A stretch of 35,136 bases of DNA, taken from assembly GCA_018666575.1 (NCBI GenBank), contig JABIYX010000107.1, positions 1 to 35,136 on the forward strand, read 5' to 3'. Origin of the DNA: Methanobacteriota archaeon (GTDB lineage: Archaea; Thermoplasmatota; Poseidoniia; Poseidoniales; Poseidoniaceae). The position numbers and the translations under genes were made by a program. Below are positions 1 through 31,558 of this stretch, in pieces; within the stretch, counting starts at the first letter, position 1, and each line of letters starts with the position of its first letter. The notes below the pieces were generated by a model. It worked only from the letters and a program-made list of their open reading frames with translations. It was not told where the DNA came from and did not search any database.

Positions 1-1148
1 GGTTTGCCACCTTTATCGGTTGCAATAGCAATTTCATTGATGGTTGCCTTGTCGCCAAAGAATTCAGTAACGACTTTTTCATCAGCATCGAATGGTAAGT
101 TTCCAACATAGAGTTTGAGCCCCTTAGGAGGTCCAGAAGTTTTCTTCTCTTTGTTATCAGCATCTCGAACGCCGATTCTTCGACCGTTGATCTTGTGTCC
201 GTCTAGAGCAGATATCGCAGCCTCAGCCTGAGGTTTAGCAGTGTATGTGACGAATCCAAATCCTTTGGATGCTCCAGAATCATCAGTCATAACAATACAA
301 TCAGTCATGTCACCGTGTTTGCCAAACATTTCCTTGAGTTGTTCAGTATCGACTTCTCGGGGAAGTCCTCCAATGAACAAACGACATCCAGGTGCTGCTT
401 TTTGTCGTCCTCCTTGACCGCCTTGGCCTTCAAATCGGAAATATGTGCGTTCTCTTCCATCTTCTCGTACGTCTGCAGCAATGTATGTTGCACGTCCTGA
501 TGGACCATGGGCAAAGAGTGCTTCAGCATCTCTACCCCAACGCTTTCCGGAGAGGTTGAATTCAGAAGCACCTTGTTCGAGTTCTGCCCATCCAGCTCCA
601 AAATTATCGGCTAGTGCACGGAAACTCCGATAGTTGCAAGATGGACAGGCAACATTCCAATCTCCGTTGACTTCTGCAACGAGTGTATCGCCACAAGGAG
701 GGCAAATGGCATGAAGGATTCCGCAATCATCACGTTCTCTGAAATCAAGGCGAACAACTGGTGTTACCTCAGTGACCACGGCTCGTGCAACATCTCGGCG
801 ACGTACAGCATCGGCAACGGTGTGGAGGAATCGATCGACAAGACGGGTGACATGGAAGTGGCCTTGAAGTTGACTTGGAAGGACATCGCCCTTTTTGCCT
901 TCAACAACAAGGATTCGAGCTTCTCCACCCTTTTCCTGAAGTTTTTCAAATCGGCAAATGACAGTATCGCCGATGGCAATATTGACAATTTCCTTTCCGG
1001 CTTGTACGCTAACAACGCCGTCATTGATGTTCATTTGGCCAACGGTTGTCGATACGATTGTATCGTCGATAACCATTGTTCCTTCGCCGGCTTCTACGTC
1101 GCCGACGTTTGCTACTTTCATTCCCGGGGTGACGAGGCTCGTCGTCAT
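1..1148 (-). CDS. Exosome subunit Csl4 (N-terminal domain, S1-like domain, zinc ribbon) fused to tandem RRM domains; 3' end truncated by the window edge
   Basis: Manual minus-strand translation is open from ATG at 1148 to position 1: MTTSLVTPGMKVANVGDVEAGEGTMVIDDTIVS...GDTVICRFEKLQEKGGEARILVVEG...CGILHAICPPCGDTLVAEVNGDWNVACPSCNYRSFRALADNFG (Csl4 layout), then CRLFIGGLPREVDTEQLKEMFGKHGDMTDCIVMTDDSGASKGFGFVTYTAKPQAEAAISALDGHKINGRRIGVRDAD (RRM1) and LKLYVGNLPFDADEKVVTEFFGDKATINEIAIATDKGGKP (start of RRM2). Confidence 0.87.
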   Translation of the reverse strand, partial: MTTSLVTPGMKVANVGDVEAGEGTMVIDDTIVSTTVGQMNINDGVVSVQAGKEIVNIAIGDTVICRFEKLQEKGGEARILVVEGKKGDVLPSQLQGHFHVTRLVDRFLHTVADAVRRRDVARAVVTEVTPVVRLDFRERDDCGILHAICPPCGDTLVAEVNGDWNVACPSCNYRSFRALADNFGAGWAELEQGASEFNLSGKRWGRDAEALFAHGPSGRATYIAADVREDGRERTYFRFEGQGGQGGRQKAAPGCRLFIGGLPREVDTEQLKEMFGKHGDMTDCIVMTDDSGASKGFGFVTYTAKPQAEAAISALDGHKINGRRIGVRDADNKEKKTSGPPKGLKLYVGNLPFDADEKVVTEFFGDKATINEIAIATDKGGK

Positions 1149-1246: not shown

Positions 1247-1867
1247 TCAATTCAAACGCTCAAGTCGATAGCAGCGAATACGTGTTGAACCCTGCTGCTG
1301 TTTGTGATGGGAATAAGCGGCAGGCAATCGAAAATCGGTCTGATAAATCGAATGCAATGCGTACCCATTTGATTTCGCTAATGCTGCTAAATGTTCAGCA
1401 TCGATGCTGTGGATGAAATGAATTAGTGGAACCTTCATGGCAAATAATGTCTCAAAGAAAGCCCTGTCTGCATGCTTTGTTTGAACGCCCCAAGGTGGAT
1501 TCATAATCGCAATATCCACCTTTGAATCGACTTCTATCGCAGTGCCATCAACACGTCGATGAATTGTGTTGAGGAATTCCTTTCCTTCGACTTCAATTAT
1601 GTTTTCTTCGATTACATCAAGCGCTGTTTTGTCACACTCGACCATCGTGACTTGTTTTGCTCCGAGAAATGCAGCACCGATTCCAAGAACTCCATTTCCT
1701 GCTCCTAAATCCAGAATGTGTTTGCCTTCAAGTGAATCGCCAAGATTGATTTTAGTAAGCCATGCAGCAGCCAGGTTTCCTTCTGTTGGATATTGCTCAA
1801 GTTCAACCGAATGACAAGGATGCGGTTTGAGAGATGAGAGTCGCATCGCAAGATGCCGTTGGCGCAT
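1247..1867 (-). CDS. METTL5-like class I SAM-dependent N6-adenine RNA methyltransferase
   Basis: LEQYPTEGNLAAAWL, HILDLGAGNGVLGIGA (SAM motif I), IMNPPWG (NPPW/F catalytic motif). ATG at 1867 preferred over the ORF-track start 1942 because it follows the stop of the upstream zinc-ribbon gene. Confidence 0.8.
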   Translation of the reverse strand: MRQRHLAMRLSSLKPHPCHSVELEQYPTEGNLAAAWLTKINLGDSLEGKHILDLGAGNGVLGIGAAFLGAKQVTMVECDKTALDVIEENIIEVEGKEFLNTIHRRVDGTAIEVDSKVDIAIMNPPWGVQTKHADRAFFETLFAMKVPLIHFIHSIDAEHLAALAKSNGYALHSIYQTDFRLPAAYSHHKQQQGSTRIRCYRLERLN

Positions 1868-1871
1868 AACC

Positions 1872-2117
1872 TCACCAACGTCGTTGTTGTTGACCGAAAT
1901 TCTGTTGATTAAATTGCTGTTGCTGTTGCATGCGAGCAGCATATTCTGCTTGTTGCATAGCTTGTTGATTACTGATCATCAAAGCAATTTGGCGGATTTG
2001 TTCAGCCTCGATTCGCAGTCTTGCGATGAGTTGATCGCCAGGTTGTTGGCCGCCACAGAAGCGGCAAAAACGAGTTCCGTCGTTTTGTGATTGCCCACAT
2101 GTTACGCAAAAACCCAT
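1872..2117 (-). CDS. Small zinc-ribbon protein with Gln-rich tail
   Basis: CVTCGQSQNDGTRFCRFCGG (CxxC-x10-CxxC) followed by NQQAMQQAEYAARMQQQQQFNQQNFGQQQRRW. Confidence 0.7.
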   Translation of the reverse strand: MGFCVTCGQSQNDGTRFCRFCGGQQPGDQLIARLRIEAEQIRQIALMISNQQAMQQAEYAARMQQQQQFNQQNFGQQQRRW

Positions 2118-14437: not shown

Positions 14438-17400
14438 ATGTTGGCCATTATGTCGAATCTACACTATCAACAGTCACGAGCGCCAGCATTTTTGTTGGTT
14501 TTTCTCTTGCTATTGGTTCCCTGTGCAGCGTTTGTAAGTTCTCAAGATAACGTCGAATCTCCAATTGAAATCACACATGCTCCGGCAATTCTTGTTGATG
14601 GCTTGCCGCCGCTTGAATGTGGTGATGAAATCTGTGAACGCCCTCTTCGAGAATACCTCCGGGACGGGCGTCCGGCAGCCCAAGAATACGGGTGGTGGAA
14701 TTCTTTTGGACCAGATTTAGATTGGAACGGAATGGATGATCGCTTACAACGTGTTCTGGACGGGATGGATTCTGTCTCCCCAACAGCAATAATTGGGCCC
14801 GATGGCAAGAAAACCGTTGCAATCATTGTCAACTACGCTTGGCATCCCACCGATACTGAAATCTCTCAACTCCAGAGTGTTCTCAATCAACATGGATGGA
14901 TTGGCGAGGAGAACGGAGCATGGTTCTCAGAACTAAGAAGCATAGATTCTCTCGTGGTTGACAAGGTTCCAGTTTCCGCTTTAATGGATATTTATTTCTT
15001 AGAAGGAGTGGTTGTAGTTGAGATGCAAAATGTCATGGCTCCCTCAAACAATGTTGCTGCAAAGGCAACAAAAGCTCGCGTATCCGACCAATATCCATAC
15101 TCCGTTTGGGCTCAAGGTTACACCGGAGAAGGTGTCGTCATTGCGGTATTGGATACTGGAGTGGATAATGAACATCGTTCTCTGAACGACTTTGATGATT
15201 CAAATGATGATCCAAATGAAGATGCCAATTCCTATGACGACCAGAAATGGTTCGGAGGGTTCGACGCAACGAGTTTTAATCCGGTACAAGATGGTTCAGA
15301 AGATCCTAATGATGGTAACGGGCACGGGACGCACGTAGCAGGATCTGCTCTAGGTACTGGAAGTTCTACCGGAAACCACATTGGAACAGCACCTGGTGCG
15401 GGACTTATCGATATCAAAGTCCTTACCGACGGTGGCGGAACAAATTCTCAAGCAAGTCTTGCTGGACTTCAATGGATGATTAACAACAAAGATACGAATT
15501 GGGGTGTGGACAGTGACTACCAAGGGATTCAAATTGGATCGATGTCATTTGGCTCGGTCGGTACTCCATTAAATCCAGGTGATAGAGGTGATAACGGTAC
15601 GAGCGCTGAAACCAATTTGATCAATGCTGCCACTGAACAAGGTATCGTTTGTGTTGTCGCTGTAGGAAATGATGGAAGCAACCGCATACCTTCCCCTGCT
15701 AGTGCTGACGGAGCAATCACAATCGGTTCGGTCGATGACAAAAATACCGTGGATCGAGTGGATGATGAATGGGCGGAATACTCCAATTTCGGCCCACGCT
15801 TAGATGATGGCGATGATGATTCCATTGATGAAATGAAACCAGACATCACTTCCTATGGAACAAATATTATGTCAGCCACAGCGTCAATAGGCTTTGCAAT
15901 TCCTGGTTCTGTGGCTTTGGCCGATAACGATTATGACGAAAAAGACGGTACGAGCATGGCAACACCTATTGCCTCTGGTATCGTTGCTTTGATGCTAGAG
16001 GTGGGTGATGAAATAGGACTCTCTTTGACTCCGGAAAAGATTAAACAGATTCTAAGAGATTCTGCGGAACAACGAGGTGATGTGTATAGTTCTTCTATTG
16101 ACGAAAAATGGAACGAAACCTATGGGTCTGGAATCATAGATGGCGCATGTGCCATTGATATCTTGCTAGAACGAATCTGTGGCAATGCACCAACGAGTAT
16201 TGTGAATGTAACTTTTCCTTCCGAAGGAGCCTGGCTGCTAAGCGGGGATACAACACGAATTTCAGGTGATGTGAACAACACGGATAGAGACTTTACAAAA
16301 GTCGAAGTTTTCATAGAACAACATTATCCTTACGTGGATTCAAATAATGATAATAAGCATGACAAACCTCCTGTGATGCTCATGAATTGGACAGAAACAA
16401 GGGGTACGATCGATGCTTGGTTCTTGGACGTTCTTATCGAAGATGTTTGGGTCAAAAACAATGACGAAAACATCCAGATTCATGTACGAGCTGTTAATGA
16501 TGAAGGTAATCTATCATCGCCTAGCATTCGGAAAATACAGGTGTCCCGGATGGTTGTTTCATTACAATCACCTGCCTTGCGAGAGGTTCTAGAAGGGTCT
16601 GTCCAAGTCACAGGTCAAGTCGAAGGAGTCGAACATGATCGCATTGAATACCGAATCGATAATCATGATTGGTTATTTGGCACCGCTCTTACCAACAGAA
16701 GTGGTAACGGTCAAGATGGGTTAGATAACTGGGAATTCACCTGGGATTCATCAGAGGCTGAGGATGGATCAAGAGATTTATCAATCAGAATGGTTAACAA
16801 ATCAGGTCTGACCTCTCCAACCACATTTAGAACCTACAATATCGACAACATTCCTCCTGCGCCAGGACTTAGATTCCTAGGGGATGTTGAAATTTTTGAT
16901 CAACAATTACCCGCTGAAACCGTTTATTCAGGAAGTTTGCTTGAATTGAAGTTCAACGTATTCAACGGAGGTGACAAAAACGCCGAAGACATTCTCGTTC
17001 GGCTCAATGCCCCTGGAGAAATTTCTGAAATCTATCCTTCACAAGGGCTCATACCATTGCTGAAGAAGGGTGAATCGGTGGAAGTAACGCTTTGGTGGCT
17101 AGCTACGGTTGCAGGCGAACATGATGTGTCGATTGAACTCGATCCGAATAACGTACAAGGAGATCAGGACTTAGACGACAACGTCTTTTCGTTCACCTAC
17201 GAAATTCTCGAACGACCATCTCAGCCATTATTGCGATTTTTACCGGGTTCTACTACCACGCTCCCAAATATTCCGATTACGAACGAACCCTATGAGATCA
17301 AAGTACGTGTAGATAACTTGGGTTCCGAGGATGCGATCTCCCTAATGGTAAATCTTGAACGAAAAGTTCCTGGCGTTGCCGGATGGTTAGAAATCGATAG

Positions 17401-19309
17401 AGAATCGATTGTTGTCGTACCTGGAGCGACATCAACATCGGGTTATGCTGATGTGAAATTCACAGATATCCATCCTGATAAGGGACCAGTACTCTATCGC
17501 GCCACATTATCGGGGAATGGTGTTGAAGAAGAACACAAAATGATTGAATTTACAGTAGCAGTGAGTGATATTCAATTCATTGGTGAAAACACTCTGTCAT
17601 TATCAAACGAGGAATACCCAGTTGCATTCGCTGGAATCGGCAAATCTACACTTGTCTTTACAGAAACAAACGGAGAACTTCATGTACGTTCTCTAACTAG
17701 TGACTTAACTCTCCAAACTGATACCTTGATCGATGATAATTGGGCTGGTGAATTAACTGTATTTGAACGAAGTGACGGTCTCGTGCATGCTGCATGGACA
17801 AGTCGAACTGAAAATCAACAAGGCTCCTTTTTCAATGATGTTGCAATGACTTCATTCTCAGAGACGGGGCAGATGCTCCCAGTACATCACCATCTAACTC
17901 CAATCAAAATCTCTGAAGGTCAATATTGGGGCTTAGATATAGCAGAAGAGGATGGACTATACGTCTTGTCAGGATACTACCGCAATATCTCAACAGGTGG
18001 TTCTTGGAGTGATACTACCTCTATTTTTACGATTCAATCCTTTACTCCAGATATCAAGGAAAATTGGTCGCTTCCAATAAATCACCTTGCGAACATTGAC
18101 ATCCACCCTGATGAAGGCGATTCACTCAGTACCGCTCTTCTGGATGGAGAATTACATGTTCTCTATCAAGAATTGAGAGATGATATATCGGGGGAGGATC
18201 GTGTTGGTCTCATGTATAGCCGTGGCGACTTGACCAGCAGTGATTGGTCGTATCAGTTGTCAGTTGGAGATTATGCCTCTTCCTCACAACTCGGCATTCT
18301 TGATGTCGATGGTGAAGATATGATTTTTGCTGCATGGATTGAGGGTGAAGGCCGAACTGCTCAAATTGCTCATACTGCAACCAAGGGCAATTGGGTGGAA
18401 CAAATTCACAGAGTGGAATCTCCGGGTTCAACACAAATTGAATTTTCAAAGCAATCGGATTCGATTGATGTCATTTACGATGAGATTACAGTTTACAGTA
18501 GAACAATTCGATATGGCTTAATGACGGATGATGGTAATAATCCCGCTTTTGCGCTCGGAAATGTGATTGGAAATAATGGAAATCTGATTGGCTATTCCAC
18601 CAATAACATAGACGGAATTGTGTTTACTGAATCGGAGACCGGTCGTATTTCAATGCAGAAATTTGCACTCAATGTTGAAGCAGAATCGGCTGAGCCGAAA
18701 TCCTTCCTTCAACAGTTACTTGAACCACTTCCAGGTTCTGAATCCACAAAGAGACTCATATTCTTTGGAATACTGGGGGCCATTTCTCTGCTCTTCCTCA
18801 CAGTAATGGCCACGTTAAGGTACTCTCACAAAGAGGAAGAAGAAAAATCCATTGAAATAGAGGATGCAGATGTTGCAATTATGGTTACTATTGAAGAGGA
18901 TTCTACGCACTCTGAAGACGAATTGGTTGCAACATTATCACCGTCATCTCCAGAATTTGTGATTGAAATGGAAGAACCCACTCTTCTTGATACGCTTGAA
19001 GCCAAGAACGCTTCAGGTGATGGAAGTGCCCGTCTCAACAGAAGAATGCAAAGGAAGCATGAGCGTGAAATTGCCGAGATTGTTTCAAAGAATCCTCCAA
19101 TGCCAGTTCCTGGTCAACTGAATCCACTTCCTCTAGTGAACACTCCACTTGAAGGGGATCAGGTATTACCATTACTTCCTCCTTTGCCAGAACTTCCTCC
19201 ATTACGAAGGGAAGTGACTTGCCCTTCATGTCAAGCAAACTTTGTGGTAACGGATATGATGCGCTCTCAACTTGAATGCCCAATTTGTTCTGAGAAATTT
19301 AATCTTTAG
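14438..19309 (+). CDS. Large secreted/membrane-anchored subtilisin-like (S8) serine protease with Ig/CARDB-like regions, C-terminal TM and cytosolic zinc ribbon
   Basis: Signal peptide FLLVFLLLLVPCAAFVSS; GVVIAVLDTGVDNEHRSL (Asp), GNGHGTHVAGSALG (His), KDGTSMATPIASGIVALML (Ser); TM LIFFGILGAISLLFLTVMATL; C-terminus VTCPSCQANFVVTDMMRSQLECPICSEKFNL. Confidence 0.92.
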   Translation: MLAIMSNLHYQQSRAPAFLLVFLLLLVPCAAFVSSQDNVESPIEITHAPAILVDGLPPLECGDEICERPLREYLRDGRPAAQEYGWWNSFGPDLDWNGMDDRLQRVLDGMDSVSPTAIIGPDGKKTVAIIVNYAWHPTDTEISQLQSVLNQHGWIGEENGAWFSELRSIDSLVVDKVPVSALMDIYFLEGVVVVEMQNVMAPSNNVAAKATKARVSDQYPYSVWAQGYTGEGVVIAVLDTGVDNEHRSLNDFDDSNDDPNEDANSYDDQKWFGGFDATSFNPVQDGSEDPNDGNGHGTHVAGSALGTGSSTGNHIGTAPGAGLIDIKVLTDGGGTNSQASLAGLQWMINNKDTNWGVDSDYQGIQIGSMSFGSVGTPLNPGDRGDNGTSAETNLINAATEQGIVCVVAVGNDGSNRIPSPASADGAITIGSVDDKNTVDRVDDEWAEYSNFGPRLDDGDDDSIDEMKPDITSYGTNIMSATASIGFAIPGSVALADNDYDEKDGTSMATPIASGIVALMLEVGDEIGLSLTPEKIKQILRDSAEQRGDVYSSSIDEKWNETYGSGIIDGACAIDILLERICGNAPTSIVNVTFPSEGAWLLSGDTTRISGDVNNTDRDFTKVEVFIEQHYPYVDSNNDNKHDKPPVMLMNWTETRGTIDAWFLDVLIEDVWVKNNDENIQIHVRAVNDEGNLSSPSIRKIQVSRMVVSLQSPALREVLEGSVQVTGQVEGVEHDRIEYRIDNHDWLFGTALTNRSGNGQDGLDNWEFTWDSSEAEDGSRDLSIRMVNKSGLTSPTTFRTYNIDNIPPAPGLRFLGDVEIFDQQLPAETVYSGSLLELKFNVFNGGDKNAEDILVRLNAPGEISEIYPSQGLIPLLKKGESVEVTLWWLATVAGEHDVSIELDPNNVQGDQDLDDNVFSFTYEILERPSQPLLRFLPGSTTTLPNIPITNEPYEIKVRVDNLGSEDAISLMVNLERKVPGVAGWLEIDRESIVVVPGATSTSGYADVKFTDIHPDKGPVLYRATLSGNGVEEEHKMIEFTVAVSDIQFIGENTLSLSNEEYPVAFAGIGKSTLVFTETNGELHVRSLTSDLTLQTDTLIDDNWAGELTVFERSDGLVHAAWTSRTENQQGSFFNDVAMTSFSETGQMLPVHHHLTPIKISEGQYWGLDIAEEDGLYVLSGYYRNISTGGSWSDTTSIFTIQSFTPDIKENWSLPINHLANIDIHPDEGDSLSTALLDGELHVLYQELRDDISGEDRVGLMYSRGDLTSSDWSYQLSVGDYASSSQLGILDVDGEDMIFAAWIEGEGRTAQIAHTATKGNWVEQIHRVESPGSTQIEFSKQSDSIDVIYDEITVYSRTIRYGLMTDDGNNPAFALGNVIGNNGNLIGYSTNNIDGIVFTESETGRISMQKFALNVEAESAEPKSFLQQLLEPLPGSESTKRLIFFGILGAISLLFLTVMATLRYSHKEEEEKSIEIEDADVAIMVTIEEDSTHSEDELVATLSPSSPEFVIEMEEPTLLDTLEAKNASGDGSARLNRRMQRKHEREIAEIVSKNPPMPVPGQLNPLPLVNTPLEGDQVLPLLPPLPELPPLRREVTCPSCQANFVVTDMMRSQLECPICSEKFNL

Positions 19310-24365: not shown

Positions 24366-27300
24366 TCACAAATCCAAATCATCAAGTAAACTCGACAGAC
24401 TGGTTGTGGCTTGGCTTGTTGGAGTCATTGAAGGTGTCGGTTGAGCAACAGGTGCAGGCGGCTGATTTGCTGCTAAGTATTGCTCGCCATAGTACGACCA
24501 TTGTTCCATCGTCCAGCCTTGTGGGAGTCCACTTGCTGGGAGAGGTGGCCCTTGATTTGTCTGAGGAGGTTGGTCATACGAAGGTTGAGAAACAGGTTGA
24601 GACGGTTGTGTTGGTTGTTCAAATGCTGGAGTTTCTGTAGGAGATTCATAGGTTGGCAAAGTAGCTGAATCCCACATTTTACTCGAACCAGTTGACTCGA
24701 GTAAATCTTCAGAGGGTGACCGTCGTGTGACTGCTAAAAAGGAAGCAAGGACAAGGACCAGAACGACGAGTAACATGATTACAATCGACATTGTCTCGCT
24801 GACACCAAGGGCTTCACTGAATTCTTCCAGAATGCCTTCTGCAGGCTTTTCTTCAACTGAAATGGTCAATGTCTTCGTGCTTGTGGCCAAATCATCATCA
24901 GTAACTGTTAGGGTAATCATCCACGTGCCGGCTGGTAAATCGTCAATTGAAATTGAAATACCAGTTGAATCGACATCCCCTAATCCTTCACCGTCTAGAT
25001 TCGTATCTTCCCATTCAAAGTCCCAAACGTAGAGCATATCGAGAAGATCACCTTCTGTGTCTATTGTATCGAATGCTGTAATGTTAAGCGTATCACCTTC
25101 GACTAAGTTGTCGATGGAGCCATTTCCGTAGGTAATCTTTGCAGTAGGGATTCGGTTGTTGACTTTTACAACGGCTGAGAGTGAGGCCTTTTCGCCATCG
25201 TCATCCATAACCCACGCAGTGATTGTTCTGTATCCTGATGAATCCCACATTGTTTCTAGACGGTCTCCTTCAACATCACAATCGTTGTTCAGTGTTCCAT
25301 CAAGGTCACTATCAGTTGTTCCATCAATGTCCCAACAGATTTCCAATGTCTCCATGTCAGAGGCAGTATCAATACCAATTACATCGAATGCAACGACTTC
25401 ATTTTCCCAAACGGGTAGCCCATCGATCCGATTGATAGCGTCTAAGAAATTTGTCTTAGCAGTTATAGTTGGTGCTACGTTTTGGATTGTGACCATTGCA
25501 AGAGATGGCTCAGACGAAACGCCATCATCATCAACAGATCGTACACTGATGACATGCTCACCAGTTGTTGGCCATGATGTGGCTACATCTGATGCTGAGC
25601 CATCGGTTGAAACCGTCATGTTTGGCATGAGGTCACTGAGATTCCAATTTAGAATCAGTTGGTCTCGATCATTGAGTGAGTCCGATCCCTGTGCACGTAA
25701 AATGACAGTTTGGTCTTCTTCCAAAATCCAGGTTCCATTTGCGTCAAATGGAGTATTTACTCCTGCAATCCATACCTCGATTTCACCAACTTCTGGCGCT
25801 ATATTCAGTACATTTAGGCTCGAGTTAACTTCGGTCTGAGCACCATCGTCGTCCGTTGCGATTGCCTTGATTTCAATTGGTCCTTCTTCCATAGGGGTAA
25901 AGGTACAGGTCGGCTGAGTCAAACCTTCTTGGCAGTTAAGATCGGGCCAAGAAATAGAGACTTGTTGCCCAGATGGAGATGTTGTATCGACGTCACCACT
26001 ATCGGATGCATCGATTGTTATTTCCGTTCCAACAGGAATTTCGGCAGCATGAGTGAGATTCATGTACGGTGCTCGGTTGAGGATTGTCACATAATTGACC
26101 AGGGTTGTTGAATCGAGTTCATCATCTGTAACGATGGTCGTAAGTTCCCAAGCACCAGCGTCTGTCCAATTCCACGACATTACACAATCAGGTGTGGTGA
26201 TGACATCGATGAGGCCTGGCCGTGATTCGATTTCAAATCGACATTCAACGTCCCCACCATCTGGATCAAATGATGTACGTGCATCAATCAAAACATCTTC
26301 GAAGGTGTATTTTCCTGATTCGATGCTCATCGATGCATTTGGCGAGCGTCCAATGAAAATATCAACACTTGCTTGGTTATTACTTCTATTTGCGTCACCA
26401 GCAACCAATTCGTCAGGGTCGACAGTAAAGGTCAGACTTTGACTCCCGATAGTGGCTCCTTCTGGAACCGTCCAATCAACAATAATTCGTTGTTCACTGT
26501 ATGCATCGATTGCAGGGACTGCTTGGCGTATTGCTTGCCCTCCTGGGACAACAACTTCCATCTCAGTTGATGGCGATGTCAGAACACCACGGTTTTGTGC
26601 CGGTAATGAGAAGGATAGTAAATCTCCTGGAAGGGCATTGTATCCTATTGATTTTGAGAGTGTTGCAATCTCACTGTCACGAGTTCTTGTAACGATAATG
26701 GAATCTTCTTGGGCAACCAAGTCAATGCCTACAACATTCAAATCGATAACAATTGTAGCAACACCAATAATTTCCTGAACTGGATCCCATACAATGACTC
26801 CATTGCTGGTGTAATCATCGCTTGCGGTGGTGTCATCCTGAACGTTTGATACGTTGATGTTCTCTTCAATCTCACCGTTACTATCTGTTGTCGGATTAAG
26901 TAACGTTCCTGCCATTTCGTAACGTAGTTGAAGATTTTTATTTACTTCTGGAGTGTTATTTGGAGCTACTGCATAGGTGGCATAGATGTCGGACATTGAG
27001 TCCGGCAATGTGGCTACGAATTGAGTTGTTACTTCGATGTCCACGTTTCGATCGCCTGGAGTCGTTCTCTTGTTTACGCCAAAGGAATCAACTGGTTCGT
27101 AATCCTTGAGTAGCCAATCGATTGTAAATCCTGCAGCGTTCGAGATTCGAATCCATGAGTTGAAGCGAACAGCAGGGCAATACCAATTGAAACCTGAACT
27201 CACTCCTGTAGCATTCCATTCGTTTACTTTGTATGACTCATCACATCCTTCGTATTTGATGTTCAAGCCATCTTCAGTTGGAATGCCATCTGTTGTGACC

Positions 27301-27980
27301 TGCCAAGAGTTGTTTTCAGCACCGTTGGTATCAAATTCAGATGGGTCGAAAAAATCAGAAGTTCCGCTTACGCTTGTTCCTGACATGAACGGCATGTACC
27401 ATTGATCACCTGTTCGAAGTGGGAAGTCATATCTCTCCTTGGGCGGGTCGTAGTAGGTGTCGAAATTTATGACTGCAATTTTCTGAGTGAAGAGGCCAAT
27501 ATTGAACGGAGCAAAATCAACATCCAATTCGAATTCAGAATTGATTACTGCTTGATCACGGACACGAATAATGTCCTCGCCGGAATAGCCGATCTCAAGT
27601 CTACCCGTAGTTCCTTCAAGCGTTGCTCCACTGTTTCCTGAACTGAAATCACCTTCAATTTTGAGTTTATATGCCAGTGTTTGTACGCCATCGATTGTGA
27701 TGAAAAAGATGTCTTCCACTTCGTAAACAGTATCTCCTGTTAGTGTGTTCAAACTCGCAGAAACGTTTGCTTGTGCAATGAGTTGTGCAACATCAAACTG
27801 AGTCTCATAAGTCCACTTGTCCCCTATACGCCAACTTGCAATTTCTGCAACTGTAGTTGATTTCGATGAGGATTCAATGGTTTTTTCATCTTCAAGAATG
27901 AATGCATTTTTTGATAACGCCATCATTGAGGTTGTCATCAGCAAGAACAAGACAAATACTGCGGTTGCTCGGTTCGCCAT
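24366..27980 (-). CDS. Giant secreted, membrane-anchored PKD-type surface protein (paralog 2)
   Basis: Signal peptide ATAVFVLFLLMTTSMMAL; WRIGDKWTYETQFD N-terminal domain; repeated PKD-like modules (DGGDVECRFEI...WTDAGAWELTTIVTDDE; CWDIDGTTDSDLDGTLNNDCD); TM SIVIMLLVVLVLVLASFLAV; tail LPQGWTMEQWSYYGEQYLAAN...SSLSSLLDDLDL. Confidence 0.85.
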   Translation of the reverse strand: MANRATAVFVLFLLMTTSMMALSKNAFILEDEKTIESSSKSTTVAEIASWRIGDKWTYETQFDVAQLIAQANVSASLNTLTGDTVYEVEDIFFITIDGVQTLAYKLKIEGDFSSGNSGATLEGTTGRLEIGYSGEDIIRVRDQAVINSEFELDVDFAPFNIGLFTQKIAVINFDTYYDPPKERYDFPLRTGDQWYMPFMSGTSVSGTSDFFDPSEFDTNGAENNSWQVTTDGIPTEDGLNIKYEGCDESYKVNEWNATGVSSGFNWYCPAVRFNSWIRISNAAGFTIDWLLKDYEPVDSFGVNKRTTPGDRNVDIEVTTQFVATLPDSMSDIYATYAVAPNNTPEVNKNLQLRYEMAGTLLNPTTDSNGEIEENINVSNVQDDTTASDDYTSNGVIVWDPVQEIIGVATIVIDLNVVGIDLVAQEDSIIVTRTRDSEIATLSKSIGYNALPGDLLSFSLPAQNRGVLTSPSTEMEVVVPGGQAIRQAVPAIDAYSEQRIIVDWTVPEGATIGSQSLTFTVDPDELVAGDANRSNNQASVDIFIGRSPNASMSIESGKYTFEDVLIDARTSFDPDGGDVECRFEIESRPGLIDVITTPDCVMSWNWTDAGAWELTTIVTDDELDSTTLVNYVTILNRAPYMNLTHAAEIPVGTEITIDASDSGDVDTTSPSGQQVSISWPDLNCQEGLTQPTCTFTPMEEGPIEIKAIATDDDGAQTEVNSSLNVLNIAPEVGEIEVWIAGVNTPFDANGTWILEEDQTVILRAQGSDSLNDRDQLILNWNLSDLMPNMTVSTDGSASDVATSWPTTGEHVISVRSVDDDGVSSEPSLAMVTIQNVAPTITAKTNFLDAINRIDGLPVWENEVVAFDVIGIDTASDMETLEICWDIDGTTDSDLDGTLNNDCDVEGDRLETMWDSSGYRTITAWVMDDDGEKASLSAVVKVNNRIPTAKITYGNGSIDNLVEGDTLNITAFDTIDTEGDLLDMLYVWDFEWEDTNLDGEGLGDVDSTGISISIDDLPAGTWMITLTVTDDDLATSTKTLTISVEEKPAEGILEEFSEALGVSETMSIVIMLLVVLVLVLASFLAVTRRSPSEDLLESTGSSKMWDSATLPTYESPTETPAFEQPTQPSQPVSQPSYDQPPQTNQGPPLPASGLPQGWTMEQWSYYGEQYLAANQPPAPVAQPTPSMTPTSQATTSLSSLLDDLDL

Positions 27981-28033: not shown

Positions 28034-31000
28034 TTAGTCTTGGGAGTTTGATTCTAACCATTGTTGGCCATAGTGTTCCCATTGTTCCATAGTCCAACCT
28101 TCAGGGAGGCCAGTTTCTGGTATTGCTGGGCCAGATTGGTTGACTGGCTGGCTTTCTATTGCTTGATCAAAAGCATTGTTCACAGGAGGATCATGAGGTC
28201 TATTTCGGCGTGCGGATACTTCGTGAGGCATAAGCCCGACTTCTTCATCACTAAAGATTGCATTTTGACGCTCATCGAGACGTTCCATGGCCCGCTCTCG
28301 TCCACCCTTTCGTCGCTGTCTCGTCATATATCCCAATCCCACAAGCAGAATAAGAAGTAAGGAAAGTTGAGCAAGAGGGTTGGCTTCTTCTCCCACCATT
28401 AGTGCGCCCAGGTCTTCAGTGAATGTTCGGTCTGGTGGGCCAATTTCTATGTTAATAATTTTAGAGCCTGGCCGTTCTGGATTTTCATCCCAAGCCATGA
28501 CACGAATCGTCGTTGAGCCCGTTTGCTTGAACATGTGTTCAACTCGCTTCCCTACGGCATCAGCATCATTGTCTTTGATTCCGTCTCCATTAGAATCGGT
28601 TGTTGTATCAAGGTCCCAAATGATAGTCAGCTGGTCAAGATCATTTGCAGAGTCAATGGTGCTTGTAGCATCGAGAATGCAATTCTCATATGCGAGGCAA
28701 TCGATTGTTTTGTAGCGAACAATAGGAGGTATGTTCAACACTTCGACCGTGATGATTTCGCTGACACGAACTCCATCATCATCTGTCACGTGATAGATAA
28801 CAGTGTGCATGCCACTGGTATTCCAGTGCCATACAAGGTCGTCACCAATAATGTCGCAATCATCATCAGCACCGCCGATGTCATTGGAATCAATACCTGG
28901 GTCAATATCCCAGCATCGGACTAGTGAATCGTAATCTGAGGATGTATCTGTTGCATTTCCTGTTAATCTGATTTCTTCCCCTTCAGCAATTGGAAGAACT
29001 TCTTCGAGTGGCATAACCACTGGCGGCACGTTGGCAACGCTAACCCATCGTTCGTATGTTCCGCTGCTTGCTCCTTCTGAATCGCTGACTTCCAAACGCA
29101 TTCGATGTAATCCTGACGTTTCCCACATCATGTCATATTCTGAAACACGTCCATCAAAGGTCATGATGAGATTCGGTTGAGCATCATCAGGCCACCATCG
29201 ATGAGTAAGCCCTTCTAGATCATCAATCGAATCGAGAGCTTGTCCACGAACCCGTACCATTTGATCTTCTTCAACGTGCCATGTTTGTTGCACGTCCATT
29301 GCGATAGGAGTTCCACCATCACTAACAGTGACTGACAAACCATGAGGGTTGATGTTGGTAAATCTGATATCGATGCTCGCAGATGTCATTGAACTGTCAT
29401 CATCAACTCCAACTGCAAGGAAGGTATGCCATCCTTCGGTAGGTGCTGTCGTGGTACAAACACGGGTGTAATACCCCTCTTCACACTCGGCATTGGGCCA
29501 ATACACATCGACTACACCAGGATATACATCTTCTGAATCAGTATCGTTTGCATAAGCATAGAGCGTGACTGGATGTTCGACCTTTACCTCAGTTCTTGCA
29601 CTTACAACTTCGATGTTTGGTGCTCTGTTGAGTATACTAACATTCAATGTCGTTACCGCTTGGTCCTGTTCTTCATCGGTAACGGTTATTGTGACGGGAT
29701 ATATTCCATCGTCAGTCCAAGTGAAATTGAGCATACAATCGAGTGATTCTACTTTCATGTAGGAAAACGAACGTGTTCCATCATCATATGGGACGTTGAA
29801 GAGACAAGAGACATCCCCTCCATCTTCATCAAAACTACCACTTGCATTGATGACTGTCTGGACGTTGGTAAATTCCTCAATAGGTTCAGCCAAAGCAGTA
29901 GGCAATCGTCCAACAAAGAGCGTAATTTCTGCTAAATCATTATCCGAATTTGCGTCTGCAGAATTGACTTGCATAGGGTCAGCTTCCCATCGTATCGGTA
30001 CATCGCCAACACTCTGGTCAAGAGGAACTGTCCATGAGAAATCGACTTTGTGTGACTCGTATGTTGCAAGACTTGGTAGTCCAAGGTCAAACGTTGATCC
30101 ATCGGGGTGATAAATTCGCATTTGTGTCGGAGTCGATGCAGTAATTCCCTTGTTTACCACAGCGACTTCAACAACAAGTTCGTCTCCCGGCAGGACATTG
30201 TATCCGGAAAGTGAACTGACAGTACTCAACTCTCCACTGCGGTTGCGAATAATGACGGCACGTTCCTCGTCAGCAATGAGGTCAAGGCCAACTAGGTATT
30301 CATCCAACGTAATTGTGGTTGAGCCAACATAATTTCCTGCCTTGGCAACAACGCCATGACTTGCCCAATCAGTATTTGTCGAAGAATAATCAAGCGCATT
30401 ACCGACATTGATGGTAGCCATGCCAGATCCATTTGAACCGGTTACAAGAGTGGTTTCAGTATCTACGAAATCGAGTTCTACATTCACTCCACTAATCGAA
30501 CCAAAACAACTTGGATCGAGAGTAACCCAAACATCGAGTGGTGTGTCTAAGGCAGTTAGGGTTCGTTCCGGTTCAACTTCAATGCATTCTACTCTTATGC
30601 CTGGGTCGCTGTTGCTATCAGTTCCTGTAGCTCCAACCGGCATGTACTGTTTCAACCTGAAATCAATCGTAAGTCCAACATCTTCTTCGGAATGTCTCCA
30701 AGCGAAGTTATTGACAGCAGGACAATACCACCGGTAGCCTGTTGATTCACCGGCAGAATTCCATGATGTAAGTTCGTATGAAGAATCACATCCGCTGTAG
30801 GCGATTCCTGAACCAAATGCATTGCGTGGTTGTCCAACCTTTGTGACTTCCCAAGTGGTTGTGTTTGTATCGGAGGTTGGAGGGGGGAACGGGGTGATGT
30901 AATCGCTCTGCCCAGACCATGTTGCCGATGCTGTTGTCAGTACAGTCCAACGTTCACCATCTCGAATCGGGAAATCATAGGTTTCTGCACCAGGGCTGTA

Positions 31001-31558
31001 TGTATTGGTGATGGTGATGTCTCCAAGCAGTTGAGTTAATGATCCAATTCCATACGGTACAAATTTGATGTATAAATCCAAATCATTCCGAACGGAGGCA
31101 AAATCACTTACTCGAAGATATTCAGTTTGAGCGAATTGAATCTCTGCGTTACCTGTGTATCCCTCAAGTTCAACACCACTCTTATCGAAATCCGCTGTCA
31201 TTCGTAGTTTGTAGACCCATTCTGAGCGATTATCGACTTGAAGTTCAAGGATTTCAGTAACTTCTGCGATTGAATCGCCATTGATTTCACCAACGTTTGC
31301 AGAAACCCCTGTATCCGTAATAAGTATGGAAGGATCGAATGTTCCTGAATACACCCATTTGTCCCCAATTCTCCAGGTGGGGACATCGCTAACACCTGGG
31401 TCGCTGCCTGCGTGTTTTACGACTGTATTGTCTTCCTCAAGGGCAAACGATGTTCCAAAAGATGTTTGGGACATTCCCAAGAGCAAAAGCACCAACAACA
31501 GGGGGATGCCTGCTTGAAGACGTGCTTCGCCCATGTATGGCCTTGAGCGTTCAAGCAA
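28034..31558 (-). CDS. Giant secreted, membrane-anchored PKD-type surface protein (paralog 1)
   Basis: LLLVLLLLGMSQTSFG signal peptide; WRIGDKWVYSGTFD; DGGDVSCLFNV, CWDIDPGIDSNDIGGADDDCD, IWDLDTTTDSNGDGIKDNDAD; TM LAQLSLLLILLVGLGYMT; tail LPEGWTMEQWEHYGQQWLESNSQD. ATG at 31534 is an alternative start. Confidence 0.85.
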   Translation of the reverse strand: MLERSRPYMGEARLQAGIPLLLVLLLLGMSQTSFGTSFALEEDNTVVKHAGSDPGVSDVPTWRIGDKWVYSGTFDPSILITDTGVSANVGEINGDSIAEVTEILELQVDNRSEWVYKLRMTADFDKSGVELEGYTGNAEIQFAQTEYLRVSDFASVRNDLDLYIKFVPYGIGSLTQLLGDITITNTYSPGAETYDFPIRDGERWTVLTTASATWSGQSDYITPFPPPTSDTNTTTWEVTKVGQPRNAFGSGIAYSGCDSSYELTSWNSAGESTGYRWYCPAVNNFAWRHSEEDVGLTIDFRLKQYMPVGATGTDSNSDPGIRVECIEVEPERTLTALDTPLDVWVTLDPSCFGSISGVNVELDFVDTETTLVTGSNGSGMATINVGNALDYSSTNTDWASHGVVAKAGNYVGSTTITLDEYLVGLDLIADEERAVIIRNRSGELSTVSSLSGYNVLPGDELVVEVAVVNKGITASTPTQMRIYHPDGSTFDLGLPSLATYESHKVDFSWTVPLDQSVGDVPIRWEADPMQVNSADANSDNDLAEITLFVGRLPTALAEPIEEFTNVQTVINASGSFDEDGGDVSCLFNVPYDDGTRSFSYMKVESLDCMLNFTWTDDGIYPVTITVTDEEQDQAVTTLNVSILNRAPNIEVVSARTEVKVEHPVTLYAYANDTDSEDVYPGVVDVYWPNAECEEGYYTRVCTTTAPTEGWHTFLAVGVDDDSSMTSASIDIRFTNINPHGLSVTVSDGGTPIAMDVQQTWHVEEDQMVRVRGQALDSIDDLEGLTHRWWPDDAQPNLIMTFDGRVSEYDMMWETSGLHRMRLEVSDSEGASSGTYERWVSVANVPPVVMPLEEVLPIAEGEEIRLTGNATDTSSDYDSLVRCWDIDPGIDSNDIGGADDDCDIIGDDLVWHWNTSGMHTVIYHVTDDDGVRVSEIITVEVLNIPPIVRYKTIDCLAYENCILDATSTIDSANDLDQLTIIWDLDTTTDSNGDGIKDNDADAVGKRVEHMFKQTGSTTIRVMAWDENPERPGSKIINIEIGPPDRTFTEDLGALMVGEEANPLAQLSLLLILLVGLGYMTRQRRKGGRERAMERLDERQNAIFSDEEVGLMPHEVSARRNRPHDPPVNNAFDQAIESQPVNQSGPAIPETGLPEGWTMEQWEHYGQQWLESNSQD

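Follow-up and report, generated by a model that had tools for sequence, protein, structure and literature searches.

The gene at the start of the analysed stretch (the window, 35,136 nucleotides) encodes the exosome cap subunit Csl4 joined in one frame to two RRM domains. The initial annotation had proposed such a fusion, and it is supported in the order Poseidoniales, the tandem form being specific to the family of the window, Poseidoniaceae. The Csl4-RRM combination and its conservation across the order appear to be new, while the parts themselves are already known; no report of such a fusion, or of a Poseidoniales exosome, was found in the open-access literature (subscription journals were outside the scope of the search). 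We consider it probable, from the sequence comparisons given below, that the protein serves as a Csl4 cap subunit with a C-terminal arm that captures RNA for the exosome.

The csl4-RRM gene and its domains

The minus-strand frame from 1148 to 3 is free of stops and yields 382 amino acids counted from the ATG at 1148, in agreement with the annotated opening of this strand to the window start. An in-window stop is absent, as had also been noted, because the window is the whole of contig C71, one of 202 contigs of a 1.87-Mb genome (G000), and the gene runs off its end. The gene end of C71 shares an exact 40-nt overlap with contig C186 (read on its minus strand), and the joined frame encodes a 460-aa protein in the order Csl4, conserved extension, Gly-rich linker, RRM1, RRM2 and basic Lys/Arg tail. 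C186 adds the remainder of RRM2 and the tail, settling the number of RRMs, which had been left to the sequence beyond position 1, at two. The gene order spanning the join is matched in three related loci (L004, L007 and L010), and C186 holds the expected downstream genes. Coordinates are collected in Table 1.

Table 1. Features of the csl4-RRM locus; positions refer to the window unless a second contig is named.
Feature	Position	Strand	Basis
csl4-RRM fusion gene, codons 1-382 of 460	3..1148	-	open frame; the rest is on G000:C186 (from 6050 to about 5777)
Csl4 part: N-terminal ECR1_N-like domain, S1-like OB region, zinc ribbon	600..1148	-	NF034126; PDB 2ba1_A profile match
ECR1_N region	1026..1136	-	PF14382 8.4e-06, 25.9 bits vs 27-bit cut-off
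Zinc ribbon CPPC-x15-CPSC	636..704	-	translation and alignment A2
Poseidoniales-specific extension (RW..EAE...GRATYIAADVREDGRERTYFRFE)	429..608	-	linker HMM and motif; diverged form in sister family
Gly-rich flexible linker	384..428	-	sequence; low pLDDT in model
RRM1	174..380	-	PF00076 79.5 bits; RNP2 LFIGGL 380-363; RNP1 KGFGFVTY 266-243
RRM2 first half, RNP2 LYVGNLP	3..119	-	PF00076 C71:12-113; joined frame
RRM2 second half, RNP1 KGFAFVFV	C186:5914-6045	-	PF00076 match; joined frame
Upstream small-domain methyltransferase gene	1247..1942	-	PF05175 1.2e-11

Profile searches recovered both the Csl4 and the RRM domains. The NCBIfam Csl4 model NF034126 matched residues 5-183 of the 382 (9.8e-25) with 87.4 bits, slightly below the curated cut-off of 90, which is exceeded in 175 of the 293 genomes of the order. 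We nevertheless accept the identity of the Csl4 part, which on sequence grounds is secured by a second comparison: a profile of 17 Csl4 parts aligned end to end with A. fulgidus Csl4 (AF_0206, PDB 2ba1_A) at E=6e-29, including the zinc-ribbon cysteines, with human Rrp4 and Csl4 as the next matches. The same alignment covers the ECR1_N region, for which the PF14382 score lies just below its cut-off; in known exosomes this domain anchors Csl4 and Rrp4 on the RNase PH ring. Within the ribbon, the first cysteine of each pair (C149 and C168) is invariant in alignment A2 and the second (C152 and C171) is kept in at least 90%. The complete Csl4 with a CPPC...CPSC ribbon described earlier is borne out by both profiles and by the translation. 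In the sister order, the stand-alone Csl4 of two loci (L060:5505-6068 and L062:5142-5696) has lost most zinc-ribbon cysteines, and that of L058 retains them. The segment that follows Csl4, previously taken to be a linker of about 60 aa, is in fact about 72 aa long and consists of a conserved 60-aa extension and the Gly-rich stretch. The linker HMM matches throughout the family of the window; the sister family passes only in L050 (5e-5), and in its other members the extension was recognised by the motif RW..EAE..L.HDG.RPYLSP.

Pfam RRM_1 matched the window protein in two stretches (1.1e-27; PF00076 above its cut-off, with both RNP1 and RNP2), and the domain placement made earlier holds, RRM1 lying at 380-174 and the start of RRM2 at about 119-1. 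Both RNP1 aromatics (Phe), which in known RRMs stack on RNA, are kept in 55 of 55 aligned RRMs, and the RNP1 and RNP2 contact positions are likewise retained in both RRMs of the tandem form and in the single RRM of the sister family. Judged by this conservation the RRMs of the fusion have an RNA-binding anatomy, and the sequence-selective recruitment attributed to them in the initial annotation is plausible. AlphaFold predicted the RRM pair of L004 as two confident RRM folds (mean pLDDT 88; about 91 for RRM1, with the order beta-alpha-beta-beta-alpha-beta) in no fixed mutual arrangement (pTM 0.49), and Foldseek with this model returned the pairs of hnRNP A1/A2B1, Sxl, HuD, HuR and PABP (E 1e-15). 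By sequence and structure together, the best PDB matches are the ssRNA/ssDNA-binding pairs of hnRNP A1/A2B1, Sxl, HuD and PABP, with which the fusion shares fold and RNP motifs; it differs from such tandem-RRM proteins in falling far under their family cut-offs and in sharing no further domains with them. Membership of the PABP family itself was ruled out (TIGR01628, 67.9 vs 497.1 bits). Against the Rbp_regulator model NF058537 (cut-off 100), the window protein with its truncated RRM2 scored 65.1 bits, and the full-length proteins of L004 and L038 scored 101.9 and 102.4 bits, each summed over two RRMs. The AlphaFold model of the full-length fusion had low confidence in the Csl4 part and the linker (mean pLDDT 48.8) and was set aside as too weak. 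Synonymous change was large and amino-acid change small, with dN/dS of 0-0.08 for RRM1, 0-0.07 for RRM2 and 0.03-0.08 for the Csl4 part. RRM2 is fast-diverging in several genera of the RRM tree, and its RNA role may therefore differ between genera.

Distribution and origin of the fusion

Since the window edge falls inside the gene, an assembly or binning step that joined csl4 to an unrelated RRM gene has to be considered. However, a scan limited to a single genome for each species found the fusion at full length in 19 other independently assembled public MAGs (L004-L022; 450-462 aa, 76-94% identity), nearly all of which carry the label Poseidoniaceae, Poseidoniales or Euryarchaeota. The one-contig genome G002 likewise encodes it, as a 496-aa frame, and none of these genomes has a stop or frameshift between the Csl4 part and the RRMs. 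Nor are the two encoded by separate genes within the order: Csl4 and RRM share an open frame in 83 of the 84 genomes with both matches listed. The exception (G091, L069:1753-3058), which taken alone would speak for an artefact, has the two parts in different frames within a stretch of ambiguous bases, a likely sequence error. With gene order conserved and dN/dS low across the junction region, we reject an artefactual join as extremely improbable.

A search of related Poseidoniales found the architecture to be order-wide. Every one of the 22 genera has Csl4, which was detected in 287 of 293 genomes; the threshold used also admits the related Rrp4, which makes the shared-frame test the stronger one. 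RRMs were found in 124 of 126 genomes (21/21 sampled genera); the two without them (G110 and G015) are also without a Csl4-strength match, consistent with incomplete assembly or loss. The Csl4 frames that look short within Poseidoniales (G175, G184, G201, G255 C63 and G284) are cut off by contig ends. The RRMs found in the order belong to Csl4 fusions or to fragments that fit such fusions, bar weak matches outside the Csl4 frame in G064 (C15:1843-2067 and C16:12687-12806), the sole such genome seen. In G255 (C63 and C88; L088/L089) there are two near-identical csl4-RRM copies, one of them cut and scrambled at a contig end, which are probably strain redundancy in the bin.

Two architectures occur. 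In the family of the window, the order is Csl4, extension, RRM1, RRM2; in the sister family (L046-L057 and L076), probably Thalassarchaeaceae, the extension is followed by a zinc finger and a single RRM. A hidden second RRM in the latter was ruled out, the extra ~75 aa being a CxxC-x17-CxxC treble-clef finger (TIGR04272 and PF23477 above cut-off). In the sister order of the same class, probably Marine Group III, Csl4 (185-214-aa frames) and the RRM (103-105 aa) stand alone on different contigs. The comparison beyond the order, made on sampled Thermoplasmatota and by a close-relative scan of genome contigs, found RRMs in 15 of 83 sampled genomes of other classes; every RRM frame there is at most 158 aa, so none is fused to Csl4, and no Csl4-RRM fusion was found in those 83. 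In most of the Thermoplasmatota sampled, an ordinary Csl4 has a length of about 180-220 aa, whereas Poseidoniales have 420-600-aa frames with RRM additions. Four Csl4 frames from beyond the order that looked long (G313, G366, G375 and G321) were discarded as candidates, their added length being N-terminal open frame in GC-rich DNA and not RRM. A search of viral contigs yielded no relatives.

The fusion gene is an ordinary csl4 with an addition and not a second copy, because the methyltransferase gene that adjoins it (as in L004, L038, L046, L058, L060 and L062) is shared with sister-order genomes in which Csl4 is unfused. In most Poseidoniales loci examined, a radical SAM and helix-hairpin-helix protein is encoded downstream of csl4-RRM (595 aa; L023:3950-5734, minus strand). 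The RRM tree was built from 55 RRMs over 79 columns, a small number, and some of its branches are long; it places the single RRM of the sister family and RRM1 of the window's family in one branch (100/99), along with two RRM2s, separate from the stand-alone RRMs (98/96) and from most RRM2s. This grouping, together with the extension common to both families, favours one RRM-Csl4 fusion in the Poseidoniales ancestor before the families split, after which one family would have gained or retained a second RRM and the other would have come to carry a zinc finger before its single RRM.

A candidate RNA-capture arm on the exosome

The genome of the window also encodes the remaining exosome components, with Rrp4, Rrp41 and Rrp42 adjacent on contig C31 and DnaG on C9. 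It is reasonable to postulate that the Csl4 N-terminus docks onto the Rrp41/Rrp42 ring as in known exosomes, and that the RRMs would therefore hang above the pore on a flexible tether, with up to three arms per homotrimeric cap. There they may catch the 3' ends or tails of single-stranded RNA and concentrate them locally at the pore, where the captured RNA would undergo phosphorolytic decay or A-rich tailing. In Sulfolobus, the RNA preference of the exosome stems from Rrp4 and DnaG and not from Csl4. Sulfolobus Csl4 shows no strong poly(A) binding, but an engineered Csl4 with the DnaG N-terminal domain at its C-terminus binds poly(A) strongly, and the reconstituted exosome containing it degrades poly(A) faster (PMC4227792). 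By analogy, we infer that the natural RRM arm works in a like manner: in both, an RNA-binding domain sits on the C-terminus of Csl4 and leaves the N-terminus free for docking, although the S. solfataricus protein is man-made and carries a DnaG domain, whereas the Poseidoniales protein is natural, carries RRMs, and occurs in a genome that also encodes DnaG. The recruiting role played by trans-acting DnaG in Sulfolobus, or by RRM adaptors like RBM7 in eukaryotes, would in Poseidoniales be partly built into the core complex.

The same domains could serve other ends. The arm might mainly be a localisation tether: by holding on to an RNP, or to RNA that is abundant or structured (rRNA, tRNA, polysomal mRNA), it would position the exosome for decay or rRNA maturation rather than choose substrate ends. 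The basic tail and Gly-rich linker would fit general RNA contacts of this kind, and the Sulfolobus study describes exosome DnaG as binding rRNA and enabling rRNA tailing (PMC4227792); however, the most similar RRM pairs bind short single-stranded RNA and there is no positive pointer here to rRNA or ribosomes, and we regard such a tether as rather unlikely. Less likely again is that the RRMs act as a chaperone or strand opener that lets structured RNA enter the pore when temperatures are low, in the manner of small bacterial Rbp-type RRM proteins. The host organisms are marine, the full-length fusions of L004 and L038 reach about 102 bits on Rbp_regulator, and L063, which stands alone as an RRM in the sister order, passes that model with 116 vs 100 bits; on the other hand, tandem canonical RRMs are usually sequence-selecting, and the link to cold is an analogy from general knowledge only. 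The small stand-alone proteins (bacterial Rbp type, and L059, L061 and L063 in genomes with unfused Csl4) share the single RRM and the superfamily with the fusion, but they are about 80-100 aa long, have their own gene and cluster among themselves in the RRM tree.

Some RRMs in other proteins bind protein instead of RNA, and the added domains might likewise contact proteins such as DnaG or a helicase, with RNA binding lost. RRM2 does vary among genera, and in L031 and L033 it groups with other RRM types, yet RRM1 and RRM2, like the single RRM of the sister family, retain the RNP1/RNP2 contact positions, which makes this quite improbable. A Csl4 cap that captures RNA through its arm thus remains our preferred reading. 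As a tentative extension of it, for which we would claim much less, exosome substrate choice in Poseidoniales may be set by an exchangeable Csl4 arm (RRM-RRM vs zinc finger-RRM), possibly including recognition of A-rich tails made by the exosome itself; related marine archaea would then share one exosome but differ in the RNA selectivity built into it.

Related systems and other genes of the window

Bacterial PNPase is a phosphorolytic ring with covalently attached C-terminal KH and S1 RNA-binding domains; these lie on the catalytic chain, whereas the RRMs of the Poseidoniales fusion lie on the cap subunit. The likeness to RBM7 of the NEXT complex (PMC4417160), where it is likewise an RRM that directs the exosome to RNA, is one of function only; RBM7-type adaptors act in trans via a helicase complex, unlike RRMs inside a core cap subunit. 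The fusion would thereby offer a prokaryotic in-cis parallel to the eukaryotic RRM adaptors, as well as a natural and defined counterpart of the engineered Csl4 fusion. RNA choice by archaeal exosomes is poorly known, and here evolution appears to have equipped Csl4 with such a recruiting arm, in a group that is among the most abundant archaea of the surface ocean and whose RRMs are gathered in one core protein of RNA decay.

Elsewhere in the window, a 1623-aa predicted surface subtilase with CARDB/Ig-like domains is encoded at 14438-19306 (plus strand) next to a rhomboid gene, and two large predicted surface CARDB/PKD proteins are encoded at 24369-27980 and 28037-31558 (both minus strand).
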